Positions 2,737 through 42,432 of a stretch of DNA of 64,000 bases are shown in pieces (within the stretch, counting starts at the first letter, position 1; the number at the start of each line of letters is the position of its first letter). Under the pieces are notes generated by a model. It saw nothing but the letters and a program-made list of their open reading frames with translations, did no database searches and was not told the origin of the DNA. Source of the DNA: a virus; the IMG/VR virus record IMGVR_UViG_3300034158_000023, positions 62,001 to 126,000 of that record; one strand, 5' to 3'. Position numbers and translations under genes: made by a program.

Positions 2737-3501
2737 ATGCAATTACAAAATTTGTTATTTGGCCATTTTGAATACTCGGTATATAACGATCACTTTACCC
2801 CCATTATAGAAGCTAAGCTTAGAAAAATGGAAATGAATGGGTATGTGGTGTTACGTACTACTGTACCTGATTCACATCACGTGATTCGCGTTATGGGTAA
2901 AGAAGGAGTAGACGCAGACTTACTGATCGATTTGTTTTATCCAACCAATATGATACACCACATCCGGTTCGGCGTGTATGTTTTAGGAGGTGCGTTATGT
3001 TGTTGGGGAGGGTATAAACTAATGCAACTTGACAGTTTAGGTAATTGTAGTACTCCTAAGGAATTGAGTGAGTATTTACACAGAACTTTTGATGAGCATA
3101 GCAAATCCGATATAGTGCCACCTCCGTATGTATCGTTGGTCATCAGTGAACTGCGAACTATGACTAATCGTTTCTTGACTACCTTACCTAAAAAGGCAAT
3201 CCCTAGACGTGTCCATTTAGCGGCGTTCTTACGTGAGTTCACCACATGGCACAGATCACTTAATTCAGGATGGGCTTCGCAATACGCTGTTAAGTCAATC
3301 ATAGGCGAAGAACTTAAGCGTGTCTGGTCAAATCCAGCTGTTAAAAGCTTACGCACCGATTTCATTACCGATGTGTACTTCGACAGTAGGATGAATATTG
3401 AATGGCGTTATTTACAAAACTTGCACATTAACTATCTGACTACTCTAGTACGGAGGATAGAAGGTGTGTGGGATCCAGTAGCACAATGTCAGGGGATTTA
3501 G
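2737..3501 (+). CDS. Hypothetical protein, 254 aa
   Basis: Start with leader ACAATAAAAGGA. No family is recognised. The C-terminal half is helical and basic (LLTTLPKKAIPRRVHL region). The next gene starts two bases after its stop, so the two are likely translationally coupled. Confidence 0.7.
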   Translation: MQLQNLLFGHFEYSVYNDHFTPIIEAKLRKMEMNGYVVLRTTVPDSHHVIRVMGKEGVDADLLIDLFYPTNMIHHIRFGVYVLGGALCCWGGYKLMQLDSLGNCSTPKELSEYLHRTFDEHSKSDIVPPPYVSLVISELRTMTNRFLTTLPKKAIPRRVHLAAFLREFTTWHRSLNSGWASQYAVKSIIGEELKRVWSNPAVKSLRTDFITDVYFDSRMNIEWRYLQNLHINYLTTLVRRIEGVWDPVAQCQGI

Positions 3502-3503
3502 CT

Positions 3504-4142
3504 ATGCGCGAGAATACCATTATTTTCAAAGGTCCAGCGGTACAGCTACTTCCACCCATAACTCGGAAAGTAGTGCCTTTGTATCTAACAGATGTGTTAG
3601 GCGAGCATACTTCAGTGATGTTATCCAAACCAGCAGATGGCACTGTAACTTTTTCTAAGTCTGGTGACACCTTAGAAGGTAAAGTAGAGTTATTCCCTAA
3701 CAACCACATAACTTTACCTGACATGGATGAAGCTGCATTTCATATACGTGGTATCGATGAGACCATTGAGTGTGTGGTGTATCTACCTCATTCAGATATG
3801 GTCACTCTTACTAAGTTAGATGAAACAACCCCTGACCGTGGATGGAGTTCTTATTTTCCATTACTGTTAGCTTTAAAGGTTGCTCAGGCTACGGCTAATA
3901 TACCTATTGTCTTCACGGGTAAACCGTCGTATACAACTGATGGTATTCCTGAAGACGTTATAGTTGGCCGTGCTACTCTGATAGTTGAGGACAAGGCATT
4001 AAAAGCGTTGATCAATTATAAACCAGAACATGCGCACTTAGTAGGGCGTCGGGTTACTATGGGTGGTAGTAGCACCCTAGGTACTATTGACAACAAAAGA
4101 ACATGGGTTTGGGATGACCTGAACTTTTTATCACTAAGTTAA
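3504..4142 (+). CDS. Hypothetical protein with a domain shared with the thymidylate synthase N-terminus
   Basis: The start at 3504 (MRENTIIF) is preferred over an upstream ATG because CAGGGGAT lies at the right distance and the upstream gene ends at 3501. The product is 212 aa. Its last ~100 residues match the N-terminal ~125 residues of the next gene: both carry DGIP-(E/V)-(D/N)-x-IVG, then an (I/V)-E-D strand, and end in W-(D/E)-D-(L/I)-x-FL. This looks like a domain duplication. No named family is recognised. The gene probably works with, or derives from, its neighbour. Confidence 0.75.
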   Translation: MRENTIIFKGPAVQLLPPITRKVVPLYLTDVLGEHTSVMLSKPADGTVTFSKSGDTLEGKVELFPNNHITLPDMDEAAFHIRGIDETIECVVYLPHSDMVTLTKLDETTPDRGWSSYFPLLLALKVAQATANIPIVFTGKPSYTTDGIPEDVIVGRATLIVEDKALKALINYKPEHAHLVGRRVTMGGSSTLGTIDNKRTWVWDDLNFLSLS

Positions 4143-4160
4143 TAATAAAAGGAATACGGT

Positions 4161-6080
4161 ATGACTACCACAGTACATAAATATTTATTTGCTCCCATTA
4201 ATGCTGCATACACATACAACGACGGTACGTGGATGTTACCTATGGCACTAGCTGTAAAGCTGGTTGCTGATACAGCCAGCGTGAAAAAACCTATTGCGGT
4301 TAGATGTAAAATGCAATGGGTTCTAGATGGCATTCCAGTTGAAAACATAGTAGGTGAAGTTCAATTCGTTATAGAGGACAACTATCTGTATGGCTTAGTT
4401 ACCTTTATGTCGCACTTTGAACACTCTGCTGAAATGCCCCTCCTGCATATGTGCGGCACAAAGAAAAGCTCTGCATTCTACGGTGAGTTGGGTGGTGCCT
4501 GGGAAGATATTGCATTCCTAGAAGCGTTTGGTGATCAAAAGCACGCTACACCTCGGTTTGAATTAGTTTCTCCAGTTGCTGACGCATCTATCGACCTAAC
4601 TGATAGTGAACGTCGTATTTATTGGAGTGATAAAGTAAGCATATACAACCCCCTACAGGAAAAAGGTACTATGCAACAGTATAAAGATTTAGTAGCTAAC
4701 GTTTACAAAAATGGTCGCGTTAAGAGCGACCGTACTGGGACTGGTACTTTAAGTGTATTCGGTGCACAGATGCGTTTTGATTTAACTAAAGGTTTCCCTT
4801 TAAACACTTTAAAGTCAACTCCTTTATATCTGATTGCCAATGAACTGATTTGGTTTTTAAGCGGTTCTACTGATGATCGTGATCTAGCACGAATGGATCG
4901 CATTCACCGTGAAGCTGTTAAAACTTCTAAGGAGCGTGCTAAAGCTGACGAGGTTGGTCAACTTACATTACTACAATATTTCTTCGGTTGTATGCCGAGA
5001 GATGCCTCCGTTGAAACACAGCAACAAACCCTGGCTTGTTTCTATGTGCTCCATCCTCAGTATAACAAACCCCACGTGGAATTAACTTTACGTGTAATCG
5101 GTGCAGTGATTCGCTACCTAGTTAGTTGTGACCTATACGTTTGGTTGTATGAGTTAGCCGACAAGCCTACGATTTGGGATGAGTGGGCTACTTATAACAC
5201 CAACTACTGTCGTGAGCAATTATGTTGGGTAGTTAACCGCGCCGAAAATGCCCCTGATGTACAAGACGAGGTCGATGCTATATTAACCAAGTTTAAAAAT
5301 TGGGAAGGTACGGTTGCTGATAAAAATAAGTGGTTCTATAATGCTGTAGTCGGCATTTCAGATAAATACGCATTTGATGTAGGGGACCTCGTGCATAGAA
5401 GGTCGATTGGACCTATGTACGGGAAACAATGGCGGTCGTTTAGTGATTATGAAGTAGACCAGATCACTAACGCTATTAAGACTTTACGTAGCAATCCTAC
5501 TAGCCGCCGTATCTGTATTTCTGCTTGGGATCCTACGTTGCTACCTATGGACGGTTTTACCCCACATGAAAACGTGGATCGTGGTGATATGGCATTAGCG
5601 CCGTGCCATGCGTTCTTCCAGTTTAACGCAGAAGAGTTAACACGGGAAGAGTTGATGTCTATGGAAAAGGTGCAGTTAGAAACAGCTTACTGTGCCCCTG
5701 AAGCATTGGGTTCTTTTATTGCGGATAAACAACTGCAAGGTAAAATCCCTAAGTATCGTTTAAGTTGCCAAGTTTATTGTCGTAGTCAAGATTTGTTCTT
5801 GGGTACTCCTTTCAACATCGCTTCTTATGCTTTACTGACTCACATGGTAGCCGCTGAAGTAGGTATGGATGTTGGTGATCTTGTATGGACTGGTGGTGAC
5901 GTACACCTGTACTCTAACCACTTAGAACAAGTGCAAGAAATGTTAAGTCGTGACTGTGTAGCATTACCTACTCTGATTTTACATAAAGGGGATAGCGGGT
6001 ACATGGAACTACAATCGACCGACATGGAGTTGATAGGTTACAATCCACATCCTGCAATCTCTGCACCAGTAGCAATCTAA
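4161..6080 (+). CDS. thyA: Thymidylate synthase with extra N-terminal domain and insertions
   Basis: Converts dUMP to dTMP with methylene-tetrahydrofolate, for phage DNA synthesis. The ThyA domain begins near residue 171 (MQQYKDLV). It shows RTGTGT at 191-196, WFLSGSTD near 231-238, TIWDEW at 337-342, GPMYGKQWR near 417-425, the phosphate-binding RRICISAWDP at 449-458, catalytic Cys482 in PCHAFFQF, SCQVY near 535, FLGTPFNIASYALLTHM near 546-562 and GGDVHLYSNHLEQ near 578. At 639 aa it is far longer than the usual ~264. There is a ~150-residue N-terminal domain duplicated from the upstream gene, about 95 extra residues before TIWDEW, and about 70 after it. All catalytic motifs are kept, so it is probably active. 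Leader TAATAATAAAAGGA. Confidence 0.95.
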   Translation: MTTTVHKYLFAPINAAYTYNDGTWMLPMALAVKLVADTASVKKPIAVRCKMQWVLDGIPVENIVGEVQFVIEDNYLYGLVTFMSHFEHSAEMPLLHMCGTKKSSAFYGELGGAWEDIAFLEAFGDQKHATPRFELVSPVADASIDLTDSERRIYWSDKVSIYNPLQEKGTMQQYKDLVANVYKNGRVKSDRTGTGTLSVFGAQMRFDLTKGFPLNTLKSTPLYLIANELIWFLSGSTDDRDLARMDRIHREAVKTSKERAKADEVGQLTLLQYFFGCMPRDASVETQQQTLACFYVLHPQYNKPHVELTLRVIGAVIRYLVSCDLYVWLYELADKPTIWDEWATYNTNYCREQLCWVVNRAENAPDVQDEVDAILTKFKNWEGTVADKNKWFYNAVVGISDKYAFDVGDLVHRRSIGPMYGKQWRSFSDYEVDQITNAIKTLRSNPTSRRICISAWDPTLLPMDGFTPHENVDRGDMALAPCHAFFQFNAEELTREELMSMEKVQLETAYCAPEALGSFIADKQLQGKIPKYRLSCQVYCRSQDLFLGTPFNIASYALLTHMVAAEVGMDVGDLVWTGGDVHLYSNHLEQVQEMLSRDCVALPTLILHKGDSGYMELQSTDMELIGYNPHPAISAPVAI

Positions 6081-6143: not shown

Positions 6144-7319
6144 ATGACCACGATTTGTTGGGATGGTAAATACTTAGCCTCTGATAGTCACGCTACGTCG
6201 GTAATTACTAATGAAATTAACGAAGCTATCAAAATACATTGCCCTAAGTTTGTTTACATTGGAGAAGATAAAATCTTGGCAGTGGCTTTTGCTGGACGTA
6301 TAGCGGCGATGCGAAAGTTTGCTGAGTTACTTACATCAGCTAATGCCAAAGTACAATTGCAAGATATCATGGACTTATGTGGGGTTATCAGATCAGGGGA
6401 AAAGTTCTCGGCTATTATCTTGACTGAAGGTGATGATTATATCCTAGAATACAGACATCACCGAGTTAAGGGATTCTCCGCAACCTTTAGTAGAATGGTT
6501 GTAACCAAGATCAAAAACAAATTACCTATGGTGATTGGTTCAGGTACTCGCACCCTAGGTAAATATTCTGGCTTGGGATTAACTGCGCCAGCAATGGTTC
6601 TTGTAGCGATTGGACTAGATGGTTTCAGCACAGGAGGAACCGTTAGTTATTTAACTAAAGATGATCTAGATTACAAGAATCGATCACACTTAACCGAAGA
6701 GGAGTACGCAAAAGTTGAGAAACTTTTGCGTACTTTGTTAGTAGGTACTAAACCTCATAAACAGGAACCACGATTAATTATCGAACCTGTGTACGAAGAA
6801 CGTCTAATCGATATAGTGGAAGAGGCTGGGAAGTTTTTTGAGAGAATGCAAGAAGCGACTAAACCAACCGTACTCAAAACGATTATCTCGTGGGGTAATT
6901 TCAACCTTGGGGAGCAGATAGATGGTAACGCAGAACTCGCAAAGTGGCTTAGTGCAAGTCCAGTCTTAGTGAAGCGGATATCTGAAGGACAGCTATATGG
7001 GGAGTGGATTAGTCCAGGTAGTCAGTCGCTCATAGAAATAGAGGAAGGTAAACGTTCCAAATACAACAATGATGAAACAACCGCTGGAATCTACTTCTTA
7101 GACCCTGACAAAATTTGCCTTAGGGTAGTGGAGTTTAGTTGGGTGGTTACCCAACAACCAGATGTGCAAGTTCTGAATATTATTGCTCACCTAACACCGT
7201 ATGGTCCGCATGCTGATAAGTTGACAGAACTAACTGTCGCTAAATGTAGGATGCGAGCATTTCCTAGAGTTGAACGCAACCAGGAACTTACTTACGTTAC
7301 TGTAGATTTAATATGTTAA
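6144..7319 (+). CDS. Ntn-hydrolase (HslV/proteasome beta-like) protein with C-terminal extension
   Basis: 391 aa. The N-terminus MTTICWDGKYLASDSHAT resembles the start of HslV and phage Ntn hydrolases, where removal of Met exposes a nucleophilic Thr (here Thr2). It is followed by a basic segment (IKIHCPKFVYIGEDKILAVAFAG) and a later GSGTRTLGKYSG segment, as in the HslV fold. The Ntn-like part covers about 1-180, and the remaining ~210 residues are unassigned. The expected role is a threonine-type peptidase or amidohydrolase, but activity is not shown. Related, more diverged proteins occur at 14015-17035. It is a single gene between hairpins with leader AAATAAAAGGA. Confidence 0.7.
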   Translation: MTTICWDGKYLASDSHATSVITNEINEAIKIHCPKFVYIGEDKILAVAFAGRIAAMRKFAELLTSANAKVQLQDIMDLCGVIRSGEKFSAIILTEGDDYILEYRHHRVKGFSATFSRMVVTKIKNKLPMVIGSGTRTLGKYSGLGLTAPAMVLVAIGLDGFSTGGTVSYLTKDDLDYKNRSHLTEEEYAKVEKLLRTLLVGTKPHKQEPRLIIEPVYEERLIDIVEEAGKFFERMQEATKPTVLKTIISWGNFNLGEQIDGNAELAKWLSASPVLVKRISEGQLYGEWISPGSQSLIEIEEGKRSKYNNDETTAGIYFLDPDKICLRVVEFSWVVTQQPDVQVLNIIAHLTPYGPHADKLTELTVAKCRMRAFPRVERNQELTYVTVDLIC

Positions 7320-11997: not shown

Positions 11998-12002
11998 TCT
12001 AT

Positions 12003-12026
12003 GGAGGGAGGGGTAACGCCCTCCCT
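12003..12026 (+). terminator. Hairpin in gene gap
   Basis: GGAGGGAGGG and GCCCTCCCT arms pair between two genes, but no T run follows. It may be an RNA stabiliser or weak terminator. Confidence 0.45.
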
Positions 12027-12044
12027 GTATACCGGGAGTTTAAA

Positions 12045-12977
12045 ATGGATACAGTACAAGTAAAGATTGTAAAGATTATAGGTTATGCTAATGGAGTTGT
12101 GAAATTATTAGGAGTGAATGTAAATGAAGGGGGCGTTTCCATACAGTTCAGTTGTGTACCCCTAGCTACCCTGTCTATAGGTGATGTACTTACAGTGCCC
12201 AATCCAATGGAACAAGGTGCTGTGTTGCGCAACACCTTGATAGGTAACCCAGTGGCTATATATACGTTAGAACTTGCGCAGTTGGATCTAATGAGTAGAA
12301 GTACCGAGGGGTTTGATTGGGCGACTGCAACTTTAGCTAAGGAACGCGGAGAAGCTGAAAAGGGGATTGTCTCTTTGGTTATGGATGAATGTCCTTATAA
12401 TACCTTTATTTTAGGCTCTTTTAGTGACCCTGGAATGTGTGTGTCAGAACCAGGCATCTCCCTGGCTAACCCACATAAATTAAGTGCAGTAGCGCCTGTC
12501 AGTGAGGTACGACATCCCTATAGTCTTGGGGTACTTCGCGGCGAGGCTATGGTATTTGGTAAGGGTAATGCTGGTAGTGGTTCCATTCTCAATGACAACG
12601 CTAAAGCAGCTGTTATCCCAGAACCACCAGAAGTTGTCCACGGTTTAAAGGCATACATGGAAGCTTTTGGTATAGTTACCGCAAGACTCATTAAGATCAT
12701 TACAGACGACGTTGATCGTAATGTAACAGCTGCTGACCTGTTAACTTATATTAACTGGGGGACTCAGTTAATACAACAACGGTATAAGGTAGTACTTACC
12801 TCTAATACAATCCCATTTGGTTTGAACTTAATAGGACTTGATACGCTAAGACTACGCATACATGTATTTTTAGCCGATCCAAATGATTCTAATCTAGTGA
12901 GCATCGCCGATGAAATTCAAAAATTCATTGAACGTTTACCTCATGCCGAAGTCACTACACTTTCGAAACAAATCTAG
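12045..12977 (+). CDS. Hypothetical protein sharing an N-terminal beta domain with 13643 and 15229
   Basis: 310 aa. The first ~60 residues (VQVKIVKIIGYANGVVKLLG then a hydrophobic strand region) resemble the N-termini of the proteins at 13643 (FTVLKIAGVKGGMLSV) and 15229 (ISATIVTILGFSSGALTAQL), suggesting a shared small beta domain. A Gly/Ser-rich linker (GKGNAGSGSIL) near residue 180 leads to a helical C-terminus. No known family. It may belong to the same system as the Ntn cassettes just downstream. Confidence 0.65.
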   Translation: MDTVQVKIVKIIGYANGVVKLLGVNVNEGGVSIQFSCVPLATLSIGDVLTVPNPMEQGAVLRNTLIGNPVAIYTLELAQLDLMSRSTEGFDWATATLAKERGEAEKGIVSLVMDECPYNTFILGSFSDPGMCVSEPGISLANPHKLSAVAPVSEVRHPYSLGVLRGEAMVFGKGNAGSGSILNDNAKAAVIPEPPEVVHGLKAYMEAFGIVTARLIKIITDDVDRNVTAADLLTYINWGTQLIQQRYKVVLTSNTIPFGLNLIGLDTLRLRIHVFLADPNDSNLVSIADEIQKFIERLPHAEVTTLSKQI

Positions 12978-13000
12978 CTATATATCACCATAGTGGATAA
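12975..13000 (+). promoter_or_regulatory. Early-type promoter-like motif (TATATCAC)
   Basis: TATATCAC at 12981-12988 is followed by CATAGTGGATAA, matching the spacing TATATyAy...GTG seen at 1832, 7374 and 20447. It lies right after the stop at 12977 and before the gene at 13051. Confidence 0.5.
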
Positions 13001-13050
13001 ACCCATAAGGGCTAACCGTTTTTACCATTATTATAAAAGGAGTTGTGACA

Positions 13051-13572
13051 ATGTTTAACACGTATAACCATATAGGAACAGTAACCAATATGTTCTTATC
13101 GGAAGCTATTAAAACAGCTCCAGTTAAAGGCATTGATGCTGACCCATTGGTACGTGAGTTATGTGAATGGATTTGTTATGAAACTAAAGGAGTTACAGTA
13201 TTTTCGTGTGAGGGACATGACCGACCTTACTCGGAAGGATATGTCATGATATCTTGGCCAACGATGTTGTCGTGTCCCCTTGTAGTAAGTACATTACAAG
13301 CAGCAATCGATACGCACTTAACCCCGTTGAAAAAGAAGAAACAACTATCTGCTTTCGTGGCTATGGCAGTAGACAATCGTATAGGTACGTCATCGGATTT
13401 CACATTCCGCTTTAAATACAAACACAATGACCGCACCTTTTCTATGCGTGCCATTTGTCGTGTATTGAAACAAGTGATGCAGGATATCGACGCGTTAGAT
13501 AACCCCGTGACTCCGGTAGAGTTAGATGAAGAAGTTGATGTCAATGTGTCTATGTATGACCTAGGTGCATAA
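13051..13572 (+). CDS. Hypothetical protein, 173 aa
   Basis: The ATG at 13051 (MFNTYNHIG) is chosen over a GTG two codons earlier because of the AAAAGGAG site. It contains ICYETKGVTVFSCEGHD with two Cys and a His, and a very acidic end (ELDEEVDVNVSMYD). No family is recognised. Confidence 0.7.
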   Translation: MFNTYNHIGTVTNMFLSEAIKTAPVKGIDADPLVRELCEWICYETKGVTVFSCEGHDRPYSEGYVMISWPTMLSCPLVVSTLQAAIDTHLTPLKKKKQLSAFVAMAVDNRIGTSSDFTFRFKYKHNDRTFSMRAICRVLKQVMQDIDALDNPVTPVELDEEVDVNVSMYDLGA

Positions 13573-13642
13573 AAGTTAAAAAATATTTCAACCATTAATT
13601 AAATGTAAGACCATCGTTCAATTATAAAAGGGAAAGTTTACT

Positions 13643-13945
13643 ATGTCTAAGAAATTCACTGTATTAAAAATCGCTGGTGTTAAAGGCGGTATGTTGTCTG
13701 TTGATTTAATTGCTCATGAGAAAGTCGGCGTTGAGATCAACGTACTGCTTGCTCCAGATGATGCAATCAAAGAAGGTCTGATCATCACTGGTGATTTAGC
13801 AGAAGGTAAAAAATACTCTGTCAAGTTGAAAGACGGCGAAGCTACCGTTACTGCGATCAAAGGTTATACTGCTGGTAAAGTAGTTAACGCTACAGGCGGC
13901 AATGGTTGCTCACAAAGCAAAGTTACCATGATGGATAACATGTAA
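13643..13945 (+). CDS. Small protein with GxGC tail, first Ntn cassette
   Basis: 100 aa, leader ATTATAAAAGGG. Residues ~1-60 form a predicted beta domain like those of 12045 and 15229. The tail is GGNGCSQSKVTMMDNM. The cognate gene of the second cassette (15229) ends RRGQGCAYAEKAKINF, so a Gly-x-Gly-Cys about 12-13 residues before the end is shared. It is followed by a terminator and then two genes, at least the first Ntn-like. It may be a substrate, cargo or regulator of that complex; this is inference. Strongly biased, well-used codons suggest high expression. Confidence 0.75.
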   Translation: MSKKFTVLKIAGVKGGMLSVDLIAHEKVGVEINVLLAPDDAIKEGLIITGDLAEGKKYSVKLKDGEATVTAIKGYTAGKVVNATGGNGCSQSKVTMMDNM

Positions 13946-13960
13946 GCACTCACCACATTA

Positions 13961-13985
13961 GAGAGAGGGTTACCTCTCTCTTTTT
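13961..13985 (+). terminator. Rho-independent terminator
   Basis: GAGAGAGG-GTTA-CCTCTCTC stem followed by TTTTT. It separates the small GxGC gene from the Ntn-like pair and would let the small gene be expressed at a higher level. Confidence 0.8.
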
Positions 13986-14014
13986 GCGCGTATAATAAAA
14001 TAAAAGGATGACGT

Positions 14015-14551
14015 ATGTCTGTAGTCATATTAGAGAACGGTAAGGTAATGTCTGATAACATAACCTACGTTACTGGCAGACGAACCACTGGCACTAAACA
14101 GTGGAAGAACGACCGACTAGTGATTGCAATGGTTGGTATGATACCAGGTAGAATCCTGGCTAAGAAAATGGTTGACTTCGCAGATGAGTTACTCACTAAG
14201 TATTACAGTGGTGAAGAAGTAAACTTTTTAGACCTGGCTTCAATGATGCCACTCCCTGCTCCTGATATAAAGCGCCACAATCTCCTCATCGTGTTAGGTA
14301 CTCACACTGACGTTTGGGTGATTGAGGTAATTAACGAAAAGGGTAAAATGATACCAACTGTATCAGAGTTAGAAATAGAAGCATTCTTTGCTGATGGTGC
14401 TGGATGCATACATGCTAATTTCATGCATCTCAACGGTATAGATATTGAAAAAGAGTTCCACCGTGCTACAGTCTATGAAATAGAAGTAGGTGGTATTACC
14501 CATGTTACTGATCTACGTGGTTTAGTGCCATTTGAGGGGGCGATATGTTAA
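14015..14551 (+). CDS. Ntn-hydrolase-like (proteasome-like) protein B
   Basis: 178 aa, leader AAATAAAAGGA. MSVVILENGKVMSDNITYVTGRR is a short beta hairpin start like the Ntn-like protein at 15819 (MSVIALHQGVLHADS). Met removal would leave Ser at position 1, a possible but unproven nucleophile. KQWKNDRLVIAMVG follows, in the place of the HslV lysine-containing strand. The similarity to HslV is weak and rests on the pattern and on the parallel cassette. Its last bases overlap the start of 14545, suggesting a co-translated pair. Confidence 0.55.
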   Translation: MSVVILENGKVMSDNITYVTGRRTTGTKQWKNDRLVIAMVGMIPGRILAKKMVDFADELLTKYYSGEEVNFLDLASMMPLPAPDIKRHNLLIVLGTHTDVWVIEVINEKGKMIPTVSELEIEAFFADGAGCIHANFMHLNGIDIEKEFHRATVYEIEVGGITHVTDLRGLVPFEGAIC

Positions 14552-15186
14552 TTTATAATGGGTACCTTATTACTGGTCACGTGTATCGCCAAATAAGTAA
14601 TGGGATAGCGTACGTTAACAAGACGGGATTAAGTCCCTCTAATGATGGCTTAGCGTTAGGGTTTAAAGCTGCTCTTGGGTACGTACATCCCCGCAACGGT
14701 TTTTCAGCCTCCCAACAACTTGGTTTCAGTAACATTGTAAGTCCAGTTTGTATGTTCCGACAGGTAAATGGTGCAGGTCGAACCACCACCGACATAAACC
14801 CCATATTACATGACGTCATATCTTTTGGTGCATCTAGAGGCAGTTTCCAAGATCTCTTTATGTTGGGGATAGAACTTAAGCTAGACATTCTAGATGTAGT
14901 TAAAACAGCGTACCTGGCGGGGGGAGATATGGTACAAGGTGTTAGCGTATTAGATCTTTTTGCCCATTTTGATAAATACCCTTGTGGGGAAATAGAGGCA
15001 GTTGGTGATGCTACATTTATAGCAAAGCACCAAGAGTTCCTAGCGCAAGTTAAAGCTAACCGTAAAACCTTAGGGTTAGATGTAAGTTGGGGTAATCTTG
15101 ACTCGGAAGGATATGTAATTGATCCTGAAGGCAAGAACCCCAAAGTGGCTGAAAGTAAGCCAAGTAAGAAAGCTCCAAAGCAATAA
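14545..15186 (+). CDS. Partner of Ntn-like protein B, possibly an inactive Ntn subunit
   Basis: 213 aa, overlapping the previous gene. The start MLIYNGYLITG matches that of 16370 (MILYKGLLIYP). The second half LGIELKLDILDVVKTAYL...VLDLFAHFDKYP matches LALGADIMDAVKVIW...IVDLVPHFERYP in 16370. The beta-hairpin start and late helix-strand pattern also resemble the Ntn-like neighbours, so it could be an alpha-type companion. The C-terminus is lysine-rich (ESKPSKKAPKQ). No catalytic residue can be assigned. Confidence 0.55.
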   Translation: MLIYNGYLITGHVYRQISNGIAYVNKTGLSPSNDGLALGFKAALGYVHPRNGFSASQQLGFSNIVSPVCMFRQVNGAGRTTTDINPILHDVISFGASRGSFQDLFMLGIELKLDILDVVKTAYLAGGDMVQGVSVLDLFAHFDKYPCGEIEAVGDATFIAKHQEFLAQVKANRKTLGLDVSWGNLDSEGYVIDPEGKNPKVAESKPSKKAPKQ

Positions 15187-15228
15187 AACAAACCATCCAA
15201 ACCACCATTAAATAAAAGGGACACTACA

Positions 15229-15750
15229 ATGTCTAAAACTACCATTAGCGCAACAATCGTTACAATCCTTGGTTTTTCATCAGGTGCTTTAACGGCACAA
15301 CTTAATGTCCCTGTCGAAGGTAGCGACGACAGGAAATATGTGGAACTTCAAATTAAGGCTGAACAAGAGTTCTCAGTACCTTTAGATGTAGTAATCGAAG
15401 AACACTTACTTAACAGTGAAGAAGTCTTAATACTGTCAGTCAATGAGTTCGGTACTTACCTATTAGAAACTGAAGCAGACATCGAAGCCCAATTTAAAGC
15501 CGATGATATCGCCATCCGAGAAGCAATGGCTTCATCTGGTGAAGCTGGTGCTCCGGCAACTGAGTCTACTGAAAAACCAGGTCTCTTGGGTAAAGCTGCT
15601 GCTGCCGTAGCAAGTGTCGCTACCGCTGTGGGCATTGGTACTAAAACAGCTGAAGCTAAAACTGAATCCCGCTCTGCGGCTGCTTCTACTGCAACTCCAC
15701 GCCGTGGTCAAGGCTGCGCTTATGCAGAAAAAGCTAAGATCAATTTCTAA
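15229..15750 (+). CDS. Small protein with GxGC tail, second Ntn cassette
   Basis: 173 aa, leader AAATAAAAGGG. Three parts are seen: the N-terminal beta domain (1-65) shared with 13643 and 12045; an Ala-rich middle, including GLLGKAAAAVASVATAVGIG around residues 118-138, which could be a membrane-active or amphipathic helix; and a tail RRGQGCAYAEKAKINF that parallels the GxGC tail of 13643. It is followed by a hairpin and an Ntn-like pair. Function unknown; candidate substrate or targeting partner. Confidence 0.75.
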   Translation: MSKTTISATIVTILGFSSGALTAQLNVPVEGSDDRKYVELQIKAEQEFSVPLDVVIEEHLLNSEEVLILSVNEFGTYLLETEADIEAQFKADDIAIREAMASSGEAGAPATESTEKPGLLGKAAAAVASVATAVGIGTKTAEAKTESRSAAASTATPRRGQGCAYAEKAKINF

Positions 15751-15760
15751 GTCATAAACT

Positions 15761-15784
15761 GTGGGAGAGCTACGGCTCTCCCAC
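15761..15784 (+). terminator. Strong hairpin after 15229
   Basis: GTGGGAGAGC and GCTCTCCCAC arms with loop TACG. There is no T run, but it occupies the same position as the terminator after the first cassette's small gene. Confidence 0.6.
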
Positions 15785-15818
15785 TATGCCATTTACCTAA
15801 AATAAAAGGAATACTGTT

Positions 15819-16373
15819 ATGTCAGTCATTGCACTGCATCAAGGGGTTCTCCATGCTGACTCGTTAGCTCTGGTTGATTGCCACCCACATCAGATACAAA
15901 AGTTATACCAGACCAAACGTGTAGCGTTAGCGCACGTTGGGGAACTGTTAACTAAAGCAGAAGCGGATAAAATTTTAGCATTGTTCACTGATCAGATCCA
16001 ATACACTGGTACTATTGATGCTAAAGCACTGATGGAGACTTTAAATCGTAATCATTACATACACACAGATTTTATCTTGGTTACCCGAGATAAAGCCTTC
16101 CGAGTTAGTTTACACCATCCTGGACCACAGCCATCTGCATTTAATGTGGAAGGTGTACCTATTGGTATGGCTACTAACAATTTAGACGTACACTGTATCG
16201 AACTCTCTCCTATGGCTACCTACATGAATGGCAGCTGTGTGAGTTATTTAAAGGTGGCACTAGAGTTAGGGTATCCAGTAGTGGAAGCAGTTGCTAAAAT
16301 GAAACCATTTACCAGTTTAAATGGTCCTATTACTCATAGCGTGAAGTTATCAGAACTGGAGGCTATAGCATGA
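15819..16373 (+). CDS. Ntn-hydrolase-like (proteasome-like) protein C
   Basis: 184 aa. MSVIALHQGVLHADSLAL resembles the N-terminal hairpin of HslV/Ntn proteins (G-x-(V/L)-xx-AD). Met removal would leave Ser at the N-terminus. QKLYQTKRVALAHVG matches in pattern the K-x-(K/R)-(V/I)-x-x-x-x-x-G segment of HslV. Later, SYLKVALELGYPVVEAV resembles the terminal helix region of its partner gene. Likely an Ntn-fold protein; peptidase activity is unproven. Overlaps 16370 by four bases (ATGA). Confidence 0.6.
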   Translation: MSVIALHQGVLHADSLALVDCHPHQIQKLYQTKRVALAHVGELLTKAEADKILALFTDQIQYTGTIDAKALMETLNRNHYIHTDFILVTRDKAFRVSLHHPGPQPSAFNVEGVPIGMATNNLDVHCIELSPMATYMNGSCVSYLKVALELGYPVVEAVAKMKPFTSLNGPITHSVKLSELEAIA

Positions 16374-17035
16374 TTTTATATAAAGGGTTGTTGATCTACC
16401 CCATTAACTTTTTTAATTCTGGGTATGTTAGAACTAGACCTATCGCGCCAGTTGCTATAACTGAGTATGGTTGTGGTATGGGGATTTCCTACGGGGACAT
16501 TAAGAAACGCCTAGAACCTGTGGCACAGAAACCTAAGCCCGTACCAGATTTGTCCAGTCAGCCTGGTGGACCTACGTCATTTCCCCAACCTAACCCAATG
16601 AATGGAAATGGCGTGCCTGGGGTATATACTCCGTATCGGCATAGAACAGACCGACCAAGCGATATGTGGAACATGACCTTAATTACCAGTCCTGTAACTG
16701 TGCTAGCAATTAACAGTATGTCTAGTGATGGAGTTAAGTCTAGAAATCTTTTTTCTACGTTAGCAGACTTCTGGCATGAAACTGGTTATGAAGTTGAGTA
16801 CAGTTTGGCTTTAGGTGCTGATATAATGGATGCTGTTAAAGTTATCTGGCAGACGGACGAAATTGGTATAGTAGATTTAGTGCCCCACTTCGAACGATAT
16901 CCAACAACGAAAGTTTATTCTCCGTTAAGTGACTATGAACTTAAAATAGAACAAACTCTCATTTTAGACTTGCAACATGATGCCGTTCGAAACAAAATCT
17001 TGGAAGACTACAAAGACAGTGTTAAAATATTTTAA
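16370..17035 (+). CDS. Partner of Ntn-like protein C, possibly an inactive Ntn subunit
   Basis: 221 aa, overlapping the previous gene by ATGA. The start MILYKGLLIYP and the segment LALGADIMDAVKVIW...HFERYP align with 14545. It differs by a Pro/Asn/Gly-rich insert at about 60-100 (PKPVPDLSSQPGGPTSFPQP), probably a flexible loop. With 15819 it forms the second Ntn-like pair. No catalytic residues assigned. Confidence 0.55.
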   Translation: MILYKGLLIYPINFFNSGYVRTRPIAPVAITEYGCGMGISYGDIKKRLEPVAQKPKPVPDLSSQPGGPTSFPQPNPMNGNGVPGVYTPYRHRTDRPSDMWNMTLITSPVTVLAINSMSSDGVKSRNLFSTLADFWHETGYEVEYSLALGADIMDAVKVIWQTDEIGIVDLVPHFERYPTTKVYSPLSDYELKIEQTLILDLQHDAVRNKILEDYKDSVKIF

Positions 17036-17080
17036 CCAGTAATGAAGTGTGGATCTAATAATAAAAGGAAGTTGTGGGAA

Positions 17081-17188
17081 ATGGAAGAAGAGTCGGCTAA
17101 AACGGAATTTGCGTGTTACGTCCACATGAGTGTGGCGTGCACAATCATTTTAGCATCGTGGTTTTTAATACTCACGGTAGCATTTTAA
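17081..17188 (+). CDS. Small single-pass membrane protein, 35 aa
   Basis: ATG at 17081, preceded by the full AATAATAAAAGGA leader, opens a 35-codon frame ending TAA 17188. The N-terminus is acidic (MEEESAKTEF), and residues ~16-35 (SVACTIILASWFLILTVAF) form one membrane helix. The leader at the usual position supports translation. Its function could be inner-membrane modulation of the host; this is inference. Confidence 0.65.
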   Translation: MEEESAKTEFACYVHMSVACTIILASWFLILTVAF

Positions 17189-17206
17189 GAATAAAAGGAG
17201 TTCGGT

Positions 17207-17833
17207 ATGGAAAATTTTAACGAGATGCATAAACTGTTTGCTAAGGTAGCTACAGACTTTCTGCGTTTTTATGGACTAGTAGCTAAAGATGCCGTTGCTA
17301 AGAACTGGGATCCTGAGTTAAGTCTGTTACAAAACATCGACAAAGAAATTAACTCGCATGACTGTGGTTTAGCTGCTTTAGCTATGGCAATTAAATTATA
17401 CCACAGTTCCCCTAAGATAGGACATGAATTCCTAGATATCGGCAACAACGAAAATCATTGGTATATCAGTTGGTGGAATGGTATTGCCGCTGACAATACT
17501 CTATATTGGGATACGTCGGTAGCATTGTTGCCACCTACAGAGAATGCGACCTCCTTACGTGGATATCGAGAAGGGTGTGTGTTAGATGAAGACGACATTG
17601 AAGACGCGACTTACGCCATCTTAAATAACGATGGTTATGGTCAGGCTATTCTATACCAATGGCTGCACTTAAGTTGCCCAGACGTGGAATATGAAACCAC
17701 TGGTGATGACACTACAGATCTAATCAATTTGATACGTGCTATCTTTGATAATCCATTTATGTTCGCTGGTGCGTTTCCTAACTCTGAAAATAACGATTGT
17801 ATCTATAGTAACCGGGATAAGGTAAGAGCGTAA
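17207..17833 (+). CDS. Possible papain-like cysteine peptidase, 208 aa
   Basis: Leader GAATAAAAGGAG. Residues HDCGLAALAMAIKLY place Cys53 at the start of a helix, followed by ENHWYISWW (His84) and YWDTS (Asp102). The Cys-helix / His-strand / Asp order is that of papain-like and transglutaminase-like folds. The remainder is acidic and unassigned. No family match can be named, so activity is a guess. It overlaps the next gene (TAATG). Confidence 0.45.
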   Translation: MENFNEMHKLFAKVATDFLRFYGLVAKDAVAKNWDPELSLLQNIDKEINSHDCGLAALAMAIKLYHSSPKIGHEFLDIGNNENHWYISWWNGIAADNTLYWDTSVALLPPTENATSLRGYREGCVLDEDDIEDATYAILNNDGYGQAILYQWLHLSCPDVEYETTGDDTTDLINLIRAIFDNPFMFAGAFPNSENNDCIYSNRDKVRA

Positions 17834-18057
17834 TGCCATATAACCACTTTTGGTATCACGTTGGTGTATGTACACTTGCAATCATGGCAGTGCTTATAGC
17901 TATTATGGTTAGCATTGAAGTATATCGATATGGTATTTGTAGTGACCCTGATCGTTATGATAAATGTAAACGAATTAACACTAAACTGTACACGATCGCC
18001 TTAATCTTGTTACTAGTTAATGTTGGTGCACTTATGATAAGTCTTAGCTTAACATAG
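17833..18057 (+). CDS. Two-pass membrane protein, 74 aa
   Basis: Start overlaps the previous stop. Two hydrophobic segments, about residues 8-28 and 50-72, are separated by a charged loop with Lys/Arg/Asp (YDKCKRINTK). Inner-membrane protein of unknown role, last gene before a terminator. Confidence 0.7.
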   Translation: MPYNHFWYHVGVCTLAIMAVLIAIMVSIEVYRYGICSDPDRYDKCKRINTKLYTIALILLLVNVGALMISLSLT

Positions 18058-18063
18058 CTAAGC

Positions 18064-18097
18064 AGAAAGACCCCTTCTCAGGGTCTTTCTTTTTTTG
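18064..18097 (+). terminator. Rho-independent terminator
   Basis: AGAAAGACCC / GGGTCTTTCT stem followed by TTTTTTT. Ends the unit with the Ntn cassettes and membrane genes. Confidence 0.92.
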
Positions 18098-18107
18098 CAA
18101 ACAAGGC

Positions 18108-18135
18108 TAAGCATATATTATCAAAGTAGTATAAC
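18108..18135 (+). promoter_or_regulatory. Early-type promoter motif (TATATTAT)
   Basis: TATATTAT at 18114-18121 then CAAAGTAGTATAAC, directly after a terminator and before the gene at 18159. Same layout as 1832 and 7374. Confidence 0.55.
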
Positions 18136-18158
18136 ACTCACAATAAAAGGTAAACCAC

Positions 18159-20395
<2,237 letters not shown>

Positions 20396-20398
20396 ACT

Positions 20399-20422
20399 AG
20401 AGGGCTTCGGCCCTCTTTTTTT
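20399..20422 (+). terminator. Rho-independent terminator after ligA
   Basis: AGAGGGC-TTCG-GCCCTCT stem with seven T. Confidence 0.93.
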
Positions 20423-22073: not shown

Positions 22074-23012
22074 ATGGAAAACACAAAAGACATATTGATG
22101 CATTCAATATTAAACCACCTGCCTACTGGTGTACCACTACTGGTATTAAGTGGAGGATTCGATAGTTCACTGATAGCACAGTTACTAGTGGAATCTAACC
22201 ATGTGTTCGATGTGGTGTACGTAGACTACGAGTCTACTGGTGCAAATAAACGAATTCGAGAAAAGAAAGCATACGAAACTATTTTAGCTAAGTATGAACA
22301 CAACATCAGGAATCACATCGTTCAGCCTATTGATGGGGTTTCAGCAAGAGCGGACATTAGGCTAAGGTATCAGCAACCATGGGCACACGCAACAGCTGCT
22401 GCTATAAATACTAAGCTAGATACTAGTTGTGTGTTAACTGGGATCCTCTTAACGGATGAGAACAAGTTCGATGACACTTTTAAGTTAGCGTACCTAGGAG
22501 CGTTACAAACCTTTCATCCGCAATACTGGTCTATGGACAATCATCCGAAGTGTTTATCTCCGCTTCGAAATGTAGAGAAAGCTAATGTCTTAGAAATGGT
22601 AAACCCCGACTTGGCTCAACACTTAACTTTTTGTGAGTCGTTTGGCGTAGATGACAATTGCGGGAAATGTAATTCCTGTAAAGCTTTCTACAGTACGCTT
22701 ATGAGAAAAACGATGCATACTCCCACTAAGGTAGTGTTGCTGCGTCAAGCTAACCGTATGGATGGGTTAATGCGTTATCTATACGCACTTAAACAGCTTG
22801 GGGATAACCTACTAATCGAACTAGGTATAAACCCTAACTGTAAAGCGTGGAAAGATATTGCCGATGAACATCTTAGTCGTCAGTTACCAGAAAAACCTCC
22901 TGAGGTTCACCCTGGGGATATAGGTCTACCAGCCGTAACTGACGTAATATTGGATAGAGCTCCGAAGGACTCTGCACTAGGAGAAGAATCATGCACGCCA
23001 CAATCCGTTTAG
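22074..23012 (+). CDS. QueC-like PP-loop enzyme (7-cyano-7-deazaguanine synthase family)
   Basis: 312 aa. The ATP-binding PP-loop SGGFDSS lies at 26-32. A later zinc motif has Cys187, Cys196, Cys199 and Cys202 (FCESFGVDDNCGKCNSCKAF), the 9-3-3 spacing of QueC. LSPLRNVEKANVL matches the QueC (T/S)P(L/F)...dKa segment. QueC makes preQ0 for tRNA queuosine, and some phages use preQ0 derivatives to modify their DNA. No QueD, QueE, FolE or DpdA-like gene is seen here, so the pathway is incomplete in this window. Substrate is inferred. Leader AAATAAAAGGA. Confidence 0.7.
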   Translation: MENTKDILMHSILNHLPTGVPLLVLSGGFDSSLIAQLLVESNHVFDVVYVDYESTGANKRIREKKAYETILAKYEHNIRNHIVQPIDGVSARADIRLRYQQPWAHATAAAINTKLDTSCVLTGILLTDENKFDDTFKLAYLGALQTFHPQYWSMDNHPKCLSPLRNVEKANVLEMVNPDLAQHLTFCESFGVDDNCGKCNSCKAFYSTLMRKTMHTPTKVVLLRQANRMDGLMRYLYALKQLGDNLLIELGINPNCKAWKDIADEHLSRQLPEKPPEVHPGDIGLPAVTDVILDRAPKDSALGEESCTPQSV

Positions 23013-31256: not shown

Positions 31257-33971
31257 ATGCTCAAGTACCTCTTAAAGCACGCAATCGCTAACGTTTGGTG
31301 TAGCCCATTCCAAGACGATCAAGCGTTACTGTTGCTTTCTAGAGTCAGTCCTATAGAACGCTATCGTGATTACTATTACGATAGATGGGAAAGGGTGGCT
31401 CTTCCAACTTTGAAAGAAGATTACCACGTTTATCAGATTGGGCAGAACAACCAAACCCGACTGAACTTATCTACTAAGTTTAACGTTTGGGTAAATGCAG
31501 CTGAAATCTGTGCCACCAACTCAATGACAATTGAATTCTATTTGGGTACTGGGATACAGTTATGTCGTAGCAGAGTATGGATAATGCTGGGTGAGGATTA
31601 CAACTACACCGTGGCTATCCAGATGCAGGATACTATTGCAAACATAGACTATGTCGAAGTATTCATGCGTGTTTATAAGAACGCATACTTCGGTAGTGAT
31701 ATGGATACAGTGGGTGCTGTAAAGATTGCCTGTAATGGTGGATTAATTACCTCTAATGCGCAAGCCCTAGCGTTACAACAAGAATACCTAGGGTTTAAAG
31801 CCAAGCCTAAAGGTTTTGCCTATGCCTTTAATAATGGTTTCTACGTAGATAACTTCTTACCTGATCAAGTTAAGGTAGGGGATCACGTTGAGTACCTGTA
31901 CGATGCTAGTGTAGACGAGGTAGTGGATTTTAAAATCGATGACTTGTTAACATTCACATCTGAACTAGATGGGCAGTTAAAGTTCTTGCTACATCCACCT
32001 AAGAAATTAGACAGCATTGATTATCGCGATGATATCGATTTATGGATTATCAAGAAATCTAGTGGTGGTCGCTTTAAAGGTCGTTACTACAACCGTAATG
32101 CTGAGGTCAGCGTTAGGATGGTAACTCATCGTGATTGGTCTGTACCTACTAGCTTTGTGCAAGCAGTGATAGACAGTGAGCCAGAATGGTTAAATACAAC
32201 TGGTTTATATTTACGAGTAGTTATCCGTAAGGCAGGTTACAATCGTCCTCTAGTGGATGAGCATCACCGCATTAAAGAACTCTATAAGCTTACAGATGCT
32301 GCTATCATTAGAGCAATGATTGGTTTAGATTCTACTGTGGTAGAATGGACTGCGGCAACTTTAGAGAAATCGGCATATACTCGCATCATGCGGAGTTTCT
32401 TTAAAGACTTGTCTGCTGTGGAAGTGTTGTACGCTTATGGTTATAATGCTACAGCCAAACTGGTAGGTGATACCCCAGTGATGGTCAAGTATGGTTCTTT
32501 CAAAGTACCTATTGGTTATCAGTGGAAATCTACGGTTTATGAATACGATGAACAAGGTTTACTAACTGGATGGAGATATCACAGTAATGGTGATACTTAC
32601 TACCCAATGGTTAGCACTACTAAAATGGTAGAGTTTGTGGATGGTGAAGGTGGGCGCTTAGCTGACTTCCAATTATCCAAATCTATTTGTGTGGTGGATA
32701 AGCTAAGTTCGTATCGGTTCTATGTGAGTCCTATCAACGTTGCAGGTGTACCCTTTAACGACTGGAAAGACGTTACTGATGACCCTGACTACTACACGGT
32801 TGGCTCTAGTGGGATTGTGTCGTGGAAGATTGACCCTAGTGGTCAGTTAGGTGTGGTTAAAGGGAACTCTAAGTTTATTTCTTACGACTTAGATATTGCT
32901 GAGTACAACCACGTTTATAAGTTTACTCTGAACCACTCTAGTCAACAAGCGCAAGTGCTACACATTCCACCTGGTCGTTTAGACATTTGGATGAACGGCC
33001 GTGCTTTGGTAGAGAACATTGACTACTTCGTTAATTACCCAGAAGTTGTTGTATGTAACAAAGAGTATTTGAAAACTGGTAAACAGTCATTTACTATTCG
33101 TGGTTATCACTTCTGTAAAGAAGACATGACTAGAGAGCTTTCGTCTCAACGTGGTTACATCAAACACGGTTTCATGTCAGTGAATAACATCTACGACTTA
33201 CGTGATGACAAAGTGGTTCGTGTTGTAGCGGCAGGTAGAACTTTCCATAGAGATCAAGTTTCCTTTGCAGAAGATCAGCGCTTAGTGACAGCTAATGGAC
33301 TTACTAATGGTAGACCATATTTAATCCAAGATGTCATTGTTCCAGTTCGCGGGGTTATAGATTACGATACTTATCCATTAAGAGCGTCGTCAATAGACCT
33401 AGATGAACGTGTAAGCGATTATCTCACGTCAAAGCTACCTGAGCTTAACACAGATGGTGAATCCGGTATTATCAATCACTACGAGCTTTATAGCCCTACT
33501 ATGGGTAGATTGATATACGACATGGGTATGGGTTTAGTGTTACCTTTAATAGGGACAGCACCTGAATCTGAAGTTGCTAAACTGATGTTGCCTTATTTAC
33601 ATCTTTTAATAGCTGACCCTTGTCGTCAAGATATGGATTTCAGATATTTGTCTATACATCCACACCCATCTAAGTTTGTTCTGACAGTAACTCAAATGAC
33701 TTATGTGTTCTTACAGCGTATCAACATGCTGTATCTATACAACCGAGTTAATCTGAGTCACTTCTTAGCAATCGAAGGTGAAGGTGAGACAGTCCCTGAA
33801 GTACCACCACCACCAGTGATCCCTGATCCAGACCCTATTCCTGTCCCTCCTGCTAGAACCTTAATAGCAGATGAGACAGGGGTAGTACCTATAAGTGAAA
33901 TAGCTAACGTAAAAGTTTCTGTTACTGATACAAAAGTTTACGGGGCATTGGTGTCACTCACGCCATATTAA
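31257..33971 (+). CDS. Large virion/tail protein, 904 aa
   Basis: A large beta-rich protein. The main part (1-840) is unassigned. A proline-rich linker at about 847-873 (VPEVPPPPVIPDPDPIPVPP) leads to a short C-terminal beta segment ending VYGALVSLTPY. Such a linker often joins a virion-bound body to an exposed tip. It sits directly before the fibre genes, so a baseplate or fibre-anchor role is likely but inferred. Confidence 0.65.
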   Translation: MLKYLLKHAIANVWCSPFQDDQALLLLSRVSPIERYRDYYYDRWERVALPTLKEDYHVYQIGQNNQTRLNLSTKFNVWVNAAEICATNSMTIEFYLGTGIQLCRSRVWIMLGEDYNYTVAIQMQDTIANIDYVEVFMRVYKNAYFGSDMDTVGAVKIACNGGLITSNAQALALQQEYLGFKAKPKGFAYAFNNGFYVDNFLPDQVKVGDHVEYLYDASVDEVVDFKIDDLLTFTSELDGQLKFLLHPPKKLDSIDYRDDIDLWIIKKSSGGRFKGRYYNRNAEVSVRMVTHRDWSVPTSFVQAVIDSEPEWLNTTGLYLRVVIRKAGYNRPLVDEHHRIKELYKLTDAAIIRAMIGLDSTVVEWTAATLEKSAYTRIMRSFFKDLSAVEVLYAYGYNATAKLVGDTPVMVKYGSFKVPIGYQWKSTVYEYDEQGLLTGWRYHSNGDTYYPMVSTTKMVEFVDGEGGRLADFQLSKSICVVDKLSSYRFYVSPINVAGVPFNDWKDVTDDPDYYTVGSSGIVSWKIDPSGQLGVVKGNSKFISYDLDIAEYNHVYKFTLNHSSQQAQVLHIPPGRLDIWMNGRALVENIDYFVNYPEVVVCNKEYLKTGKQSFTIRGYHFCKEDMTRELSSQRGYIKHGFMSVNNIYDLRDDKVVRVVAAGRTFHRDQVSFAEDQRLVTANGLTNGRPYLIQDVIVPVRGVIDYDTYPLRASSIDLDERVSDYLTSKLPELNTDGESGIINHYELYSPTMGRLIYDMGMGLVLPLIGTAPESEVAKLMLPYLHLLIADPCRQDMDFRYLSIHPHPSKFVLTVTQMTYVFLQRINMLYLYNRVNLSHFLAIEGEGETVPEVPPPPVIPDPDPIPVPPARTLIADETGVVPISEIANVKVSVTDTKVYGALVSLTPY

Positions 33972-36925: not shown

Positions 36926-36935
36926 GGACATTACA

Positions 36936-38054
36936 ATGATACCATTATTACCTAGCTGGGATGAAAATGATAACATGAGTGCTCCATATGTGGGGCCAAT
37001 AAAACGACCTGCCCCTAAGGGAGAATGGGAGAATGCGACATTCTCCCTAGGGCCCTTAAATTATGGAGCACCTGAACAACATTTAGCGCAAAGATGGTGG
37101 GCTATCTATTCTGAGATCCATGAAGGGGTAACCTACCTTTATATAGTTCCAGCTAACCTTGACGGTAGTGGATGGGGAAGACCTAGACGGATTCTTGATT
37201 TCTACTACGCTAGAATTATTATAGGTATTACCTTTGGATTTAATCACCGTGGCCTTGCCATAATTGGGTTACACCACAACGATAACTACGGTCCACCTAA
37301 TGCAACTTCAGTTTTCTATCCCGTTAAGGATAGTGCAGGAGCATATGCGGTAAGGATTATGTATTTAATGGATGCCAAAGGAGTAGTAATAGCGTGCGAA
37401 AAACCAGAGTATGTTGAAGGGGTAGAAAGAGTAACCTACCTTTTTTACAAGGATCCAAATAACGTATTAACTTACCTTACTGACAATGGTACTGAAAATT
37501 GGAGTAATACTAATGCAGTTAAAAGTAGAGAACTGGGCCCGTCTTGGGAAATTCTGCATGGGGGTTATCGCATAGACGGTAAGTTTCAATTAGCTTATCG
37601 ACATGATGCAAACGACCCATTACCACCAGATGTTCTACCTCCGGAAAGTTATACTTACGGGGAGTTGCTATCATCTCCTTATCCATATAAGGCTCCAGTA
37701 GAAATTAACCCTATCCCTAAAGCTAGTGTCTCTACTGCTACTGTGACAACAGTTACACCTACAGTGGAAACCGCAAACGTGGCTAGACCGATGGGTACGA
37801 TAACTGGCATTTTAATCACGGAACCGTTGATTAATTTACCTATAGTAGAACAGATACCAGTTGCTAAAGCTAAGATTGACTCGATGTCAGTAGAGAATAC
37901 GATTCTAGTTACTCCAGTGACTGAAACGTTACCTACTACATTACCATTGGCTATGGGAGTCAAGTTAACAACCACTAGGGTGGGCGATGAAGCAGTTAGT
38001 ACTACCACCATTGGCGTACCAACCATCAGTAACATAACCGTTACTAATCTCTAA
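36936..38054 (+). CDS. Fibre-associated protein, beta-rich head and Thr/Val-rich tail, 372 aa
   Basis: Residues 1-235 are beta-rich with repeated Trp/Tyr strands (WWAIYSEIHEGVTYLYIVPANLDGSGWG, then later HGGYRIDGKFQLAYRHD), resembling the 41793 protein, so a propeller-like or sialidase-like fold is possible. From about residue 245 the chain is almost only Thr, Val, Ile, Pro and Ala, an unusual low-complexity tail. It sits between fibre genes 1 and 2. Confidence 0.65.
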   Translation: MIPLLPSWDENDNMSAPYVGPIKRPAPKGEWENATFSLGPLNYGAPEQHLAQRWWAIYSEIHEGVTYLYIVPANLDGSGWGRPRRILDFYYARIIIGITFGFNHRGLAIIGLHHNDNYGPPNATSVFYPVKDSAGAYAVRIMYLMDAKGVVIACEKPEYVEGVERVTYLFYKDPNNVLTYLTDNGTENWSNTNAVKSRELGPSWEILHGGYRIDGKFQLAYRHDANDPLPPDVLPPESYTYGELLSSPYPYKAPVEINPIPKASVSTATVTTVTPTVETANVARPMGTITGILITEPLINLPIVEQIPVAKAKIDSMSVENTILVTPVTETLPTTLPLAMGVKLTTTRVGDEAVSTTTIGVPTISNITVTNL

Positions 38055-38064
38055 GGAGGTCAGG

Positions 38065-39911: not shown

Positions 39912-39913
39912 TT

Positions 39914-40864: not shown

Positions 40865-40873
40865 GGAATAAGT

Positions 40874-41782: not shown

Positions 41783-41792
41783 AGGAGCGAAT

Positions 41793-42413: not shown

Positions 42414-42432
42414 TGCCTATTCGGAGATAAAG

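Follow-up and report, generated by a model that had tools for sequence, protein, structure and literature searches.

Two copies of a three-gene cassette lie in tandem at 13643-17035 of the phage DNA investigated here, each with the order small protein (S), hairpin, Ntn-type protein (N) and companion protein (C). We favour, as the rather probable reading, that this cassette encodes an enzyme module of the proteasome family in phiKZ-like jumbo phages, in which N would be the catalytic-type subunit, C its partner and the tail of S the target. That the two N proteins belong to the proteasome superfamily is well supported by profile searches, conserved catalytic positions and a structure model. The companions of the window are presumed members of a family which probably has a degenerate Ntn fold.

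Two diverged cassettes in the genome of a phiKZ-like phage

The window, that is the whole stretch of 64,000 nucleotides analysed, covers positions 62001-126000 of an IMG/VR phage record of 215,386 bases. The structural, tail-sheath, terminase and DNA-polymerase genes of this record match phage families. A 904-aa phiKZ-like head protein (31257-33971) led to 270 phage records, mostly phiKZ-like, and its best matches include Eowyn and PhiEaH1 with 36-39% identity. A nucleotide match was looked for with window positions 12000-20400 and none was found. Therefore, the source is a phiKZ-like jumbo phage, far from sequenced isolates. The features of the window relevant here are:

6144..7319, + strand: solo-type Ntn protein, 391 aa, with a C-terminal extension (phrog_1040 match; tree)
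13643..13945, + strand: S1, small protein, 100 aa, C-terminal tail ...TGGNGCSQSKVTMMDNM (ORF; tail and position as in the S genes of other cassettes)
13960..13981 (about), + strand: hairpin between S1 and N1 with a U-rich tail, terminator- or attenuator-like (9 bp, z -2.2)
14015..14551, + strand: N1, proteasome-like Ntn hydrolase of the cassette subfamily, Met-Ser start, 178 aa (profile; triad positions; tree)
14545..15186, + strand: C1, companion, presumed degenerate Ntn partner, 213 aa (synteny; overlap; similarity to C2)
15229..15750, + strand: S2, small protein, 173 aa, tail ...RRGQGCAYAEKAKINF (ORF; tail; non-significant S-profile match)
15761..15784, + strand: hairpin between S2 and N2 (10 bp, z -4.4)
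15819..16373, + strand: N2, proteasome-like Ntn hydrolase, Met-Ser start, 184 aa (profile; phrog_1040; AlphaFold2 model)
16370..17035, + strand: C2, companion, presumed degenerate Ntn partner, 221 aa (synteny; overlap; similarity to C1)

An earlier note on this DNA had described the order small, Ntn-like and companion protein as occurring twice, with start and stop overlaps coupling each N/C pair and a hairpin between each small gene and its pair. Indeed, all six ORFs are at their places, the reading frames overlap by 7 nt (N1/C1) and by 4 nt (N2/C2), and both hairpins are present. A lack of similarity between the cassettes in profile-profile comparison had been named beforehand as speaking against the whole idea. 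In pairwise BLASTP, N1 and N2 are similar with E=0.001 and C1 and C2 with E=5e-5, while S1 and S2 show no similarity. The similarity of the companions is carried mainly by the segment LGxxI(L/M)DxVK...HF(D/E)(K/R)YP, which had been pointed out as common to both. The whole 215-kb record has 332 ORFs with a length of 60-250 aa; only three of them show a GxGC motif within the last 25 residues, and two of these are S1 and S2. Judged by the ORFs, overlaps, hairpins, weak pairwise similarity and tails, the two cassettes are real and related, yet very divergent. Motif scans gave no third copy in the genome, which has two diverged cassettes and one solo Ntn protein. The latter, located outside both cassettes and belonging to the same superfamily as N1 and N2, matches phrog_1040 ('peptidase HslV family') with E 5e-16 in one search and 2e-19 in another.

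The N proteins belong to the proteasome superfamily

Scans of Pfam and PHROGs gave nothing significant for any of the six cassette proteins; in a search of the phage record N2 showed a weak match to phrog_1040 (E 0.013). Single-protein scans of IMG/VR with N1 and N2 and a tblastn of sequenced phages found no relatives either, and these were reached with the phiKZ-like head protein and the solo Ntn protein as starting points. Synteny with LigA (L011) was uninformative. A first profile that included N1 and N2 (A1) found N proteins in 18 of 42 related IMG/VR records. When twelve N proteins from other phages were combined into a profile, N2 (2.1e-12) and N1 (2.7e-10) were the top matches in the genome, the next unrelated ORF having an E-value of about 1. 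This profile was revised by adding Derbicus and Huxley and by removing two rows without a full cassette, the proteins of the window again being excluded. Among the 806 ORFs N2 then came first (E 3.1e-15), N1 second (2.3e-11) and the solo protein third (2.6e-9), followed by an unrelated ORF at 2.9.

The earlier note had derived the Ntn assignment from a short N-terminal motif and had recommended a profile search against Ntn families. Against PDB, profile A1 found mostly designed repeat proteins and no HslV. With a broader profile of 21 rows, those of the window included (A6), solved HslV structures were matched with E 2e-7 and an archaeal proteasome beta subunit with 2e-4, BPH being marginal. 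The top row of the A6 search was a designed repeat protein, which we took as an artefact.

All 31 N sequences compared start with Met-Ser or Met-Thr; the start codon of the Moabite protein is TTG. In one alignment (A5) Asp14 and Gly41 are found in every sequence and Lys28 in nearly all, and the equivalents of Met-Ser/Thr, Asp17, Lys33 and Gly47 are kept in the N proteins, including N1 and N2. Exposure of Ser1 by removal of the Met is assumed.

The AlphaFold2 model of N2 (11 sequences; pLDDT 83, pTM 0.81) is in line with these results. All 50 PDB matches listed by Foldseek are proteasome-superfamily structures, with a probability of 1.00 for the first ten. At this probability the model matches the 20S proteasome, Anbu and HslV, with a TM score of 0.50-0.59 for HslV and a sequence identity to the fold matches of about 10-14%. 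An unrelated fold had been named in advance as the finding that would speak against an Ntn sandwich; the motif-based assignment was thus right.

In a phylogenetic tree, N1 and N2 group with ten cassette N proteins (90/81), apart from the solo ones, and the solo protein of the window groups with the other solo N proteins. N1 and N2 are on long branches and should, therefore, not be taken as the result of a recent duplication.

The companion is probably a degenerate Ntn protein

A profile of the companion family matched in 13 of 52 records, once in each and always beside N, nine of its rows stemming from these same 52 records or near-identical phages and AH06 and SNUABM_54 being absent from it. 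No companion without N was found in the 52 records. For one family member, that of locus L124, a model was obtained with pLDDT 86 and pTM 0.84. Its best PDB match is BPH (probability 0.97, E 4e-3), then the 20S proteasome and HslV, in a weak superposition (TM about 0.3-0.42, rmsd about 8, every E at least 1e-3). In BFVD, the model matches uncharacterized proteins of PhiEaH1, Bosolaphorus, Derbicus, Huxley, RSF1 and RP12 and, at lower rank, a Caulobacter-phage 'Proteasome subunit beta'. A conserved Ser/Thr at position 2 is missing from the companions, hence the nucleophile is absent. These model matches and the absent nucleophile let us conclude that the family companion is probably a degenerate Ntn partner. 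A comparison of the Ntn and companion profiles gave a probability of 44% and E 2e-4 over the length, and 15% after the companion set had been changed, a link which is suggestive and unstable.

For C1 and C2 themselves no significant match was found to the family companion profile or to the Ntn profile. A profile of the C-terminal segment did not lift them above noise, and a regular expression derived from this segment failed on both. Therefore, the likeness of their HF(D/E)(K/R)YP to ELN(E/K)RFP, with which the family proteins end, is no more than suggestive. We presume C1 and C2 to be members of the companion family because of their position, coupling and short common ending, and as such they would share its Ntn fold. 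The earlier claim of a second related subunit is thus supported for the family, as judged from the L124 model with its weak TM scores; for C1 and C2 the profile tests were negative and it has synteny, coupling and the short motif in its favour.

The small protein and its C-terminal tail

The S proteins have a Gly-(Cys/Ser/Ala) C-terminal tail in common, as in RTGCLEARVQG, RSGCLEERVQA, GSGSTQAKQQRC, GTGSPDYSMKSQGI, GNGCSQSKVTMMDNM and GQGCAYAEKAKINF. In Derbicus and Huxley they end with R(S/G)ATPN(F/V)SI plus a few residues. The best match of an S profile in the genome was S2, with a non-significant E of 0.15; S1 had no significant match, and comparison of S1 and S2 with the S proteins of the family revealed no significant similarity. 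The separate hairpin between S and N suggests that S is made in excess. S may be a substrate or an adaptor of N/C.

Conservation of the cassette in other phages

About ten phiKZ-like lineages have the cassette order, with a single occurrence in each genome. S, hairpin, N and C follow each other in PhiEaH1/G016, Moabite/G022, AH06 and SNUABM_54 and at the IMG/VR loci L123/L127, L124/L125, L126 and L128. In Derbicus and Huxley the gene order alone was read, and it is S-N-C there too. A hairpin between S and N was present in 12 out of 12 cassettes examined, counting both of the window. An overlap of 1-8 nt joins N and C in all 11 pairs listed; SNUABM_54 and Derbicus have a small gap in its place. 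Variants of the arrangement were seen as well: in G002 no S was recognised beside N-C, in G035 a companion-like gene precedes two N genes, and several of the same phages carry solo N genes that lack both C and S. The neighbours of Noxifer gp241 were considered as a further cassette and rejected. A tandem pair of recognisable cassettes was found in none of the other records searched.

Possible mode of action and alternative explanations

According to the module that we favour, N would be a catalytic-type subunit with Ser1, or Thr1 in some relatives, as nucleophile after loss of the Met, and with Asp17 and Lys33 assisting. C, the product of the overlapping frame, would be a partner of degenerate Ntn fold without nucleophile which assembles with N, by analogy with proteasome beta and alpha subunits. 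S would be a separate product, probably in excess, small and probably beta-rich, with a flexible Gly-(Cys/Ser/Ala) tail that N/C may bind or cut, S being substrate, adaptor or activator. We infer an N/C complex with peptidase or transpeptidase activity; a heteromeric chamber with protease activity or a scaffold, as proposed earlier, would likewise be hypothetical. The phage record has no match to AAA_2 (PF07724), so an HslVU-like machine would need an unfoldase of the host.

Alternatively, N could be an HslV-like peptidase that works by itself or in homo-oligomers, with C as an unrelated coupled regulator or inhibitor and S as an independent abundant protein. We regard this as rather unlikely. 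The solo N genes, the hairpin which S has for itself and the failure to link C1 and C2 to the Ntn fold through their sequences fit such an explanation; it is at odds with the best folds of the companion model, with the 0 of 52 records that have C without N, and with the group of their own which the cassette N proteins form in the tree. The extreme divergence of the window N proteins and their long branches would be in keeping with an Ntn pair that is catalytically dead or residual and serves in structure or assembly, as a component of the virion or the phage nucleus. This appears quite improbable, as the catalytic positions, from Met-Ser/Thr to Gly47, are kept despite very low overall identity, which suggests selection for the chemistry. 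It is barely credible that the Ntn likeness is a coincidence among unrelated small genes: similarity between the cassettes is weak and a Pfam family is missing, but profile E-values of 1e-11 to 1e-15, the structure matches and the conserved synteny contradict it.

A more specific variant of the favoured module was considered by analogy. Connectase is an archaeal Ntn protein ligase which is specific for a peptide motif and has two helices inserted between S3 and S4. Its structure (6zvz) is among the fold matches of N2 with a probability of 0.93, a weaker structural match of lower rank, and it serves as an analogy for processing of the S tail only. By this analogy, an N/C heteromer might cut S after the tail glycine (Gly|Cys/Ser/Ala) and transfer the S domain to other proteins via a Ser1/Thr1 acyl-enzyme, which we consider a long shot. 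If true, it would be a ubiquitin-like modification carried out by a proteasome homologue, and this phage would have two such systems in parallel, each with its own S protein.

Relation to known systems

The earlier note knew of no phage system with this layout. This needs modification, since N is annotated in many phages and public phiKZ-like genomes contain the same gene order without comment. Moabite gp099 and PhiEaH1 gp117 belong, together with EL gp15 and SPN3US gp1, to phrog_1040 or the RefSeq 'peptidase HslV family' and are, like AH06 gp60, annotated 'proteasome-like hydrolase', of the same superfamily as N1 and N2. Moabite gp099, PhiEaH1 gp117 and AH06 gp60 stand in the same S-N-C order as in the window. 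In these public records N alone is annotated, companion and S are each a 'hypothetical protein', and the operon is undescribed. The claim stands insofar as the open-access literature searched, subscription papers being mostly outside the search, describes neither the three-gene operon nor its duplication. We also found no report in it on the function of phage proteasome homologues. The conserved operon gives this enzyme concrete partners, a probable dead subunit and a small tailed protein. If N and C assemble, phiKZ-like phages would encode a two-subunit complex of the proteasome type, with a possible substrate encoded adjacent to it, and the duplication in the window would point to a possible coexistence of two S specificities.

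HslV, BPH and the 20S proteasome share fold and catalytic residues with N, which is without a propeptide. HslV works as a dodecamer with the AAA+ unfoldase HslU, and a host HslU could serve the phage N. In the 20S proteasome active beta and inactive alpha rings are made of separate subunits; the family companion is proteasome-like in its model and has no nucleophile. HslV-like genes without HslU have been described in a Salmonella jumbo phage (PMC7823757). Furthermore, the proteasome homologues PPH, RPC and AAH of phages and hosts have been published (Fuchs et al. 2021, PMC8665760). According to the available part of that paper they resemble N in being phage-borne, without propeptide and with Ser/Thr1-Asp17-Lys33, and this part mentions neither a degenerate partner linked to them nor a small protein with a tail. 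PPH is given there as about 140 aa without helix H2 (PMC8665760), whereas N1 has 178 and N2 184 aa. The N2 model has helices 46-62 and 68-75 at the H1-H2 position, and N1 and N2 fall outside PPH as thus defined.

Ntn genes outside the cassettes

An Ntn gene also lies outside the two tandem cassettes, each of which consists of a small tailed protein (S), a hairpin, a proteasome-like Ntn hydrolase (N) and a companion:

6144-7319, + strand: solo Ntn protein, 391 aa

Its N-terminal half is HslV-like and matches phrog_1040, the PHROGs 'peptidase HslV family', with an E-value of 5e-16. The C-terminal half weakly resembles prohead protease families, namely Peptidase_S80 (E 0.004) and the head maturation protease PHROGs (E 2e-4). 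Judged from these matches, a fusion of an Ntn domain with a prohead protease is possible.

Other arrangements occur among phiKZ-like phages. Tandem pairs of adjoining Ntn genes were found in two records, at L137 845-2169, with a companion-like gene 5' of the pair, and at L142 1501-3069. PHIKZ289 of phiKZ (L166 2830-3561) gave a weak N-type match (E 2e-4), and no companion was recognised. In the 194 aa S protein of Huxley (L174 861-1445) the domain appears to be present twice, both copies being N-terminal to the tail.

A repeated sequence element

AATAAAAGGA occurs 15 times in the window (for instance, at 13999, 15801, 17060 and 17190), compared to 0.16 expected instances, and 14 of the 15 copies are on the + strand. 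Start codons directly follow several copies, and the element is a candidate for a common ribosome-binding site or promoter-like element.

Other genes of the window

3468-6080: region including a thymidylate-synthase-like protein of 639 aa; towards its N-terminus this protein is similar to the C-terminal part of the ORF before it
22074-23012: QueC-like protein of queuosine biosynthesis (E 4e-17)
33986-44817: divergent tandem paralogues of one family, within presumed structural genes (members at 33986, 38065, 38970, 39908, 40874 and 42433)
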